From: Clostridiales bacterium | Lineage (GTDB): Bacteria > Bacillota > Clostridia > Oscillospirales > Oscillospiraceae | NCBI GenBank assembly: GCA_021205725.1 | Contig: JAJPWY010000036.1 | Coordinates: 1-64,000 of the forward strand | DNA: 64,000 nucleotides | Direction: 5' to 3' | Shown here: positions 62,193-64,000 of the stretch, in pieces | How positions within the stretch are numbered: the first letter of the stretch is position 1 | How the letters are laid out: every line of letters starts with the position of its first letter | Translations under genes and position numbers: made by a program | Notes under the pieces: generated by a model | Database searches by the model: none | What the model was told of the DNA's origin: nothing | Seen by the model: the letters and a program-made list of their open reading frames with translations, nothing else

Positions 62193-62474
62193 GTCTCCCA
62201 CTTTTTTGCAAGTCATCCCAGCATGTACATGTATAAAAGCTTATCCCCTTCCATTGATGATGAGGAAAATGCGCCTGGCAAGCGGAGTCAGGCAGAGCCG
62301 GTCGTTTTATTCTCATCTCTGCCTTTCTCCCGGCAACATCCTGCCGTATTTTACCGGAACTTTACAGGTGCCTGGTTTCGCATCTTACACAGTGGGCAGT
62401 ACAATAAAGCTGTACAGCTTTCTGCTGTGGACAGAACGACTGCAATCAGTTGAAAAAGAGAGGTAGATAACTAC

Positions 62475-63371
62475 ATGCGGAAACGGGAACGAATCCTTCT
62501 GCTGCTTCTGGCCCTGGCGCTGATACTGAGCGGCTGCGGGGCGGCGGGAGGCAGCCTGGCGGCGGTGGACGGCCTGGACGACCTGGGCGAAGTTCAGGTG
62601 GTCTCCAGAGAGGAGGGCTCCGGCACTCGGAGCGCCTTTGCGGAGCTGGTAGGCTTTGACGGGAGCACAGACGGCGAGAGCGCCGACGCCACTGTGGACA
62701 CGGCTCTGGTGGTCACAGACGCAGATGCGGTGATCGACGCCGTCGCCTCCGATTCGTCGGCGGTGGGCTATGTCTCCATGGGCGCATTGAGCAACCTGGA
62801 CGGGGCGAAGGCCCTGGCGGTGGACGGCGTGGAGGCCACGCTAGACAACGTGAAAAAGGGCAGCTATCCCCTGAGCCGACCCTTCTGCCTGGCCTGGAGC
62901 GGCAGCCTCAGCGAGCTGGAGCAGGACTTCCTGACCTATGTGCTGGGCAAGGGACAGGCGATCGTGGGCCAAGGCTATGTGACGGTGGCGGACAGCACCA
63001 CCTTCCTCTCCGGGAAGCAGTCCGGCACCATCACCATCCACGGCTCCACCTCTGCCGCCCCGTTGCTGGAGGAGCTGGCGGCGGAGTATATGACGCTCAA
63101 CCCCAACGCCACGGTCGAGGTAACGGCCTCCGATTCCACCACCGGCCTGAACGACGCCATGCAGGGCAAATGTGACTTTGGCGCAGCCTCCCGTGAGCTG
63201 AAGGACTACGAGGCAGAGCTGCTGGACTATGAGGTCATTGCGGAGGACGGCATCGCCGTCATCGTCAACGGAGAGAACCCCCTGGACGCCGTCACGCTGG
63301 AGGAACTATACGGCCTCTTTACCGGGACGATTGCGGACTGGAACACCATCAATACAGAAAGGGAAGACTGA
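62475..63371 (+). CDS. PstS-like phosphate-binding lipoprotein with apparently permuted halves
   Basis: Lipobox LALILSGCG; VQVVSREEGSGTRSAFAELVG...AVGYVSMGAL...KGSYPLSRPF...GQAIVGQGYV then TITIHGSTSAAPLLEELAAEYMTLNPNATVEVTASDSTTGLNDAMQGKCDFGAASRELKDYEAELLDYEVIAEDGIAVIVNGENPLDAVTLEELYGLFTGTIADWNTI-stop shortly after. Confidence 0.85.
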   Translation: MRKRERILLLLLALALILSGCGAAGGSLAAVDGLDDLGEVQVVSREEGSGTRSAFAELVGFDGSTDGESADATVDTALVVTDADAVIDAVASDSSAVGYVSMGALSNLDGAKALAVDGVEATLDNVKKGSYPLSRPFCLAWSGSLSELEQDFLTYVLGKGQAIVGQGYVTVADSTTFLSGKQSGTITIHGSTSAAPLLEELAAEYMTLNPNATVEVTASDSTTGLNDAMQGKCDFGAASRELKDYEAELLDYEVIAEDGIAVIVNGENPLDAVTLEELYGLFTGTIADWNTINTERED

Positions 63372-63372
63372 G

Positions 63373-64000
63373 ATGAACGACACATTACAAATTATTTTTG
63401 GTCTGTTCGGCGGACTGGCCATCTTCATTTACGGCATGAACCTGATGAGTGAATGTCTCCAGAAGGCGGCCGGGGAGCGGATGAAGCAGATTTTGGGTCT
63501 GCTGACCCGGAACCGGCTCATGGGAGTGGTGGCCGGAGCGTTGGTGACAGCGGTGCTGCAGAGCAGCAGCGCCACCACCGTCATGGCCATCGGCTTCGTC
63601 AGCGCAGGGCTGATGACGCTGCCCCAGGCCATCTCCATCATCTTCGGCGCCAACATCGGCACCACCATCACCGCCCAGATCATCGCCTTTAAGATTACGG
63701 ACTATATCTACGTGTTCATATTCGCAGGCTTCCTCGTGTCCTTCATCAGCAAGAACGAGAAGGTGAAGAACATTGGACGGACGGTGTTCGCCTTCGGTCT
63801 GCTGTTCCTGGGCATCGAGACCATGGGCGACGTGATGAAGCCCCTGGCCTCCAGCCCGGTGTTCACCGACATGATCGCTCAGGTGGCGGACATCCCGGTG
63901 CTGGGTGTGGCCGTGGGCACCCTGATGACCCTGGTGGTACAGAGCAGCAGCGCCACCATCGCCGTGCTGCAAAATTTCGCATCCCAGGCCGGCGCAGACG
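63373..64000 (+). CDS. Na/Pi cotransporter family protein (truncated by the window end)
   Basis: MNDTLQIIFGLFGGLAIFIYGMNLMSECLQKAAGERMKQILGLLTRNRLMGVVAGALVTAVLQSSSATTVMAIGFVSAG...TLMTLVVQSSSATIAVLQ: duplicated QSSSA motifs. Confidence 0.94.
   Translation, partial: MNDTLQIIFGLFGGLAIFIYGMNLMSECLQKAAGERMKQILGLLTRNRLMGVVAGALVTAVLQSSSATTVMAIGFVSAGLMTLPQAISIIFGANIGTTITAQIIAFKITDYIYVFIFAGFLVSFISKNEKVKNIGRTVFAFGLLFLGIETMGDVMKPLASSPVFTDMIAQVADIPVLGVAVGTLMTLVVQSSSATIAVLQNFASQAGAD

Follow-up and report, generated by a model that had tools for sequence, protein, structure and literature searches.

A naturally circularly permuted PstS lipoprotein encoded next to an NptA-type Na+/Pi cotransporter gene in a clostridial genome

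The stretch of DNA analysed here, 64 kb from a gut-type Clostridiales bacterium and referred to below as the window, encodes a PstS lipoprotein that is, with near certainty, a natural circular permutation, cut at the hinge between its two lobes and joined at the old C- and N-termini. The explanation that best accounts for the data as a whole, and which we put forward with moderate confidence, is that this permuted, membrane-anchored PstS has been re-partnered with the cotransporter NptA and would assist Na+/Pi symport.

Architecture and fold of the permuted PstS

The permuted pstS gene (62475..63371, on the + strand like the other window features below) starts with ATG and runs as one intact open frame of 298 aa, identified by profile matches and modelling. 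Its product opens with a lipobox, LSGC (residues 18-21; 62526..62537), which reads CTGAGCGGCTGC and whose lipid-anchored Cys21 is kept in those rows of a 19-row alignment that extend to the lipobox. The canonical second half (residues 38-172; 62586..62990), recognized by PF12849 and by the II-I order given by half-specific HMMs, is placed first and carries SREEGSGTR, GYVSMGAL and PLSRPF, followed by a linker that bridges the former C- and N-termini (residues 173-182; 62991..63020), as defined by comparison of linker lengths, and by the canonical first half (residues 183-294; 63021..63356) with GSTS, ASRELKD, DGIAVIVN and FTG.I..W. Every motif quoted in the original prediction was present in the ORF.

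The Pfam profile PF12849 (PBP_like_2) matches the protein twice, at 109 bits in two stretches against a gathering threshold of 27, with residues 179-291 corresponding to profile positions 5-125 and the N-terminal half (62589-62945) to positions 132-264, so that the halves do not follow the canonical order. Similarly, the first half of TIGR02136 falls on residues 180-294, and since the match to this profile is split in two stretches, the score of 157.3 bits stays below the curated cut-off of 206.6. The canonical PstS chains 4gd5 and 4q8r from the PDB gave a crossed, two-piece alignment with the window PstS, and 4h1x aligned end to end (residues 38-292 to 9-264, 255 residues, E 2e-54; E 2e-79 in the profile search). 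The original prediction had proposed swapped halves, to be checked by searching each half against PF12849; the crossed PF12849 and TIGR02136 matches and the 4h1x alignment uphold it, the N-half falling on profile positions 132-264 and the C-half on 5-125.

An AlphaFold2 model of the monomer, built from the 19-row alignment, was confident (pLDDT 89.2, pTM 0.82) and coincided with the solved permuted PstS 4H1X. In a Foldseek search of the PDB, 4h1x was retrieved at E 1e-30 (TM 0.80/0.92, rmsd 1.9 A), the runner-up reached E 5e-6 and the other matches listed had a TM of at most about 0.5. As a control, the procedure was repeated with the canonical PstS that this genome encodes on contig C12; its model (pLDDT 86) matched canonical PstS structures (4gd5, 1twy, 4exl and others), with 4h1x outside the top 50. 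The two models pick different structures, and the method therefore separates the two topologies; their secondary-structure elements form one series, rotated. We found 4h1x to be the sole solved structure with the permuted topology, and a viral structure library gave no meaningful match. A domain-swapped dimer, which had also been considered, need not be invoked, as the monomer, the form that was modelled, already coincides with 4H1X.

Partner gene, upstream regulation and proposed role

The gene that follows the window pstS is an nptA-type Na+/Pi cotransporter gene rather than pstCAB. It encodes 563 aa (63373..64000, on to contig position 65061), matches PF02690 in two stretches together with the PhoU domain PF01895, and starts 1 nt past the pstS stop. 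The pstCAB genes of the same genome lie on another contig with their own pstS, in a complete canonical pstSCAB-phoU operon (G000:C12:280-4543, L047).

Most permuted PstS proteins head pstCAB-phoU operons. Of the permuted pstS genes at the loci examined, 92 stand before pstC; another 38 lie immediately ahead of an nptA-type gene and 5 immediately behind one. Some places were fetched twice in these counts, and 33 NptA-linked and 93 PstC-linked proteins remain once identical ones are removed. The NptA-linked proteins form one clade of 14 rows (100/99), three of which have no adjoining nptA. On the transporter side, the PstS-linked NptA proteins likewise constitute one subfamily: they share 49-95% identity with the reference row, against 31-34% for the ordinary NptA of the order, and of 26 such ordinary proteins none adjoins a PstS. 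The Lachnospiraceae show the same split. The pairing also persists with the gene order flipped (L041, L060, L288), and coupling of a binding protein gene to a secondary transporter gene is conserved across genomes. Linked-type NptA without an adjoining pstS was seen in L253, where the clade PstS of that genome is on another contig, and in L254, which looks frame-broken. No PstS-NptA fusion was found among the genomes searched (the order, the NptA search and the Lachnospiraceae), the largest open frames listed being a 661-aa NptA and, the tandem form described below apart, a 514-aa permuted PstS. An attempt to establish independence from PstCAB through the absence of PstC failed, PstC being encoded in 21 of 21 NptA-linked or same-clade genomes tested.

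Some members of the NptA clade adjoin CorA or another gene. At four loci from close relatives, a CorA-type Mg2+ transporter gene replaces nptA directly after the permuted pstS, an assignment made by Pfam for L026 and by resemblance for L019, L021 and L027. As a separate observation, L041, L042 and L043, from Clostridium fessum, Blautia luti and Holdemanella biformis, carry the nptA-permuted pstS pair near an ssb-like gene, in 7-10 kb of DNA with an identity of at least 99.8%, which points to recent mobility of the pair, perhaps on an integrative element.

Upstream of the window gene, motif scanning and upstream conservation identified a Pho-box-like direct repeat, TTTACCGGAACTTTACA (TTTAC-N6-TTTACA; 62350..62366), the sole match to this pattern in the 64-kb window (0.00 expected), arranged like the pneumococcal Pho-box published as TTTACACAATCTTTACA (PMC4913102). 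A weak sigma-70-like promoter, TTCGCA-17-TACAAT (62377..62405), was found by consensus scan, one such match against 0.5 expected. Related permuted pstS genes have a Pho-box-like repeat at the matching position: TTTAC-N6-TTTAC precedes 10 of 33 NptA-linked genes (0.04 in shuffles) and 45 of 92 PstC-linked genes (0.13 in shuffles), counts that come from related rather than independent sequences, with the motif common to divergent members. More distant NptA-linked loci carry TTTAC-N6-TTAACA. As far as sequence can tell, the Pho-box points to induction of the window operon under phosphate limitation, and hence to uptake.

Given this arrangement, we picture the chain as running from the canonical second lobe through a linker of 10-12 residues to the canonical first half, ending at the hinge, with the two lobes still making one cleft that would hold the phosphate contacts of PstS. 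In most relatives the permuted PstS would serve the PstCAB ABC importer, while the window clade appears re-partnered, its pstS probably co-transcribed with the dedicated NptA subfamily under the Pho-box. The lipid-anchored PstS would most likely capture phosphate at low concentration and hand it over to NptA, for whose part as the functional partner we see about even chances.

A less probable but serious alternative is that the window protein is an extra Pho-induced binding protein for PstCAB, the co-transcription of nptA then being co-regulation of two parallel Pi routes. As PstC is present in all genomes tested, a window-type PstS could indeed feed PstCAB, and sister permuted PstS proteins are encoded in pstSCAB operons. 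Moreover, phosphate and other residues vary little between the groups: few residues, mostly conservative in their differences, separate the NptA-linked from the PstC-linked permuted PstS, and no docking signature is therefore evident. Against this alternative, a canonical PstS is already provided by the pstSCAB-phoU operon of the same genome, and the pairing is with one specific NptA subfamily, survives the flip in gene order and marks out a single clade among the PstS as among the NptA proteins.

PNaS proteins with a PhoU domain, E. coli YjbB among them, are reported to export Pi, and the C-terminal PhoU domain of the window NptA could accordingly suit a Pi-responsive surface sensor or buffer, or a PstS that recaptures Pi released by a Pi-exporting NptA. 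We consider this improbable, as the Pho-box suggests induction under Pi starvation, when export would be counter-productive, and as the NptA of S. pneumoniae imports Pi (PMC4913102). Assistance of Na+/Pi uptake by the permuted PstS remains our preferred reading.

Phosphate site, distribution and origin of the permutation

Phosphate-contact loops of PstS are present in both lobes of the window protein. The loop SREEGSGTR (residues 44-52; 62604..62630) was located by conservation of contact residues and supplies the equivalents of E. coli PstS R135, S139, G140 and T141, which are invariant in the 33 NptA-linked and 93 PstC-linked permuted PstS; the loop GSTS (residues 190-193; 63042..63053), located by contact comparison and alignment, covers the E. 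coli T10/F11 region. The same 33 and 93 proteins also retain the equivalents of T10 (S or T), F11 (S here) and S38, and G190, S191 and S193 are invariant in the 19-row alignment. These equivalences derive from our own alignment to the known E. coli PstS sequence. Judging from these residues, the ligand of the window PstS is very probably phosphate. The position of E. coli D56 is occupied by Ser, followed by Arg, in permuted PstS, a site unlike that of E. coli PstS that might instead accommodate another oxyanion or a phosphate ester. Such a ligand is, nevertheless, very unlikely: the same substitution (ASRDLK) is found in the C. perfringens PstS 4gd5, whose structure was solved with bound phosphate, and the Pho-box and the neighbouring Na+/Pi cotransporter also fit phosphate.

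Each of the 7 genomes searched from the genus has the permuted gene, and copies at 87-91% identity occur in independent MAGs. Counted from the match listings, near-full-length permuted PstS gave 105 matches, distributed over 103 of 395 genomes from the order, and permuted PstS was present in 18 of 399 genomes of the phylum sample; the sample from the phylum of Holdemanella contained it in 4 of 195. A cut-off of E <= 1e-60 gave matches, almost all of them full-length, in 88 of 299 Lachnospiraceae genomes. The original prediction had expected such arrangements elsewhere in the Clostridia behind generic annotations, and was right on this point. Half-specific HMMs assigned the ORFs of the fetched loci to 177 permuted (II-I), 62 canonical (I-II) and 2 tandem (I-II-I-II) arrangements, counts in which some loci are the same place fetched more than once. 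On this cross-genome evidence an artefact is next to impossible, be it a frameshift, a false join in the assembly or the decay of two tandem copies: no frameshift or join was detected, the ORF is intact, the same full-length gene recurs in all genus members searched, the 177 ORFs share its order and a homologue has been solved.

A tree of 83 rows places 45 permuted sequences, 4h1x and the window PstS among them, on one side of a branch (99/86), and the proposal of a permuted binding protein is thereby supported in phylogeny as well as in sequence and predicted fold. Two Bacilli-type permuted rows (L248, L250) group with canonical PstS; a single origin of the permutation is not rejected (AU p 0.32), and these two may stem from a second event that independently permuted the protein at this hinge. 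At L248, L249 and L250, in three genomes of Holdemanella's phylum, the permuted PstS gene stands before a pstC-like gene and after that of a PhoR-like kinase.

Two genomes from another genus of the phylum encode, ahead of pstC, a tandem PstS-PstS lipoprotein of 527 aa (L175:1102-2685 and L176:1102-2685, both on the - strand), with two complete canonical copies each. The copies are 74% identical and the II-to-I junction measures 12 aa, equal to the median linker of the 177 permuted proteins. Cutting such a protein at both hinges would yield the arrangement in the window, and we infer that the permutation most likely arose when pstS was duplicated in tandem and the outer halves were then lost. 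The tandem proteins sit among canonical PstS in the tree and are therefore not the actual ancestor; rather, they may bind phosphate at two sites and serve as a model for a route by duplication and trimming.

Comparison with known systems

Canonical PstS (PF12849, TIGR02136; 4GD5, 1TWY, E. coli PstS) shares with the window protein homologous halves, the phosphate loops and, in Gram-positives, the lipoprotein nature, but has the halves in opposite order, and Foldseek gives no end-to-end alignment of it with the model. The closest structure, 4H1X (PstS 2, SP_2084, of Streptococcus pneumoniae TIGR4, released 2012-10-17), has the permuted order, agrees in fold end to end and lies inside the permuted clade of the tree, yet is 38% identical; SP_2084 lies in a pst ABC operon instead of one with nptA. 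In the papers searched, largely outside the subscription journals, nothing was found on PstS permutation or 4H1X. The permuted fold is thus already known from the PDB yet apparently undiscussed in this literature, which also seems to lack any description of the NptA-linked clade, of the Pho-box that goes with it or of the tandem lipoprotein.

Natural permutation of binding proteins has rarely been documented, and permuted PstS is frequent across a whole order; its tandem-duplicate counterpart offers an example of how permutations of this kind come about. A precedent is TpMglB-2 (Tp0684), a circularly permuted glucose-binding lipoprotein termed 'Type Ic', which is likewise membrane-tethered and present in many Gram-positives, but which has a Type I sugar-binding fold, only a few strands moved and an ABC transporter as partner (PMC4990184). 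The window NptA has the PF02690 and PhoU domains of known NptA/PNaS Na+/Pi cotransporters; these have been described without a binding protein, and the subfamily of the window is set apart by its 31-34% identity to ordinary NptA.

For the pair as such, we propose by analogy a PstS-assisted Na+/Pi symporter with TAXI-GltS as its closest analogue. In TAXI-GltS, the binding protein is translationally coupled to a Na+/glutamate symporter, with fused forms in Lachnospiraceae; before its description, TRAP and TTT alone were known as binding-protein-dependent secondary transporters (PMC12344293). Both systems couple a binding protein gene to a Na+ symporter gene instead of the usual membrane partner, and they differ in that TAXI-GltS employs a TAXI protein, handles glutamate and includes fusions, none of which were found here (PMC12344293). 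Its authors asked why so few kinds of secondary transporter work with binding proteins and suggested that an elevator mechanism may be required (PMC12344293). Elevator models exist for NaPi-II cotransporters (PMC6325988), so that the pstS-nptA pair would offer a ready test of this requirement.
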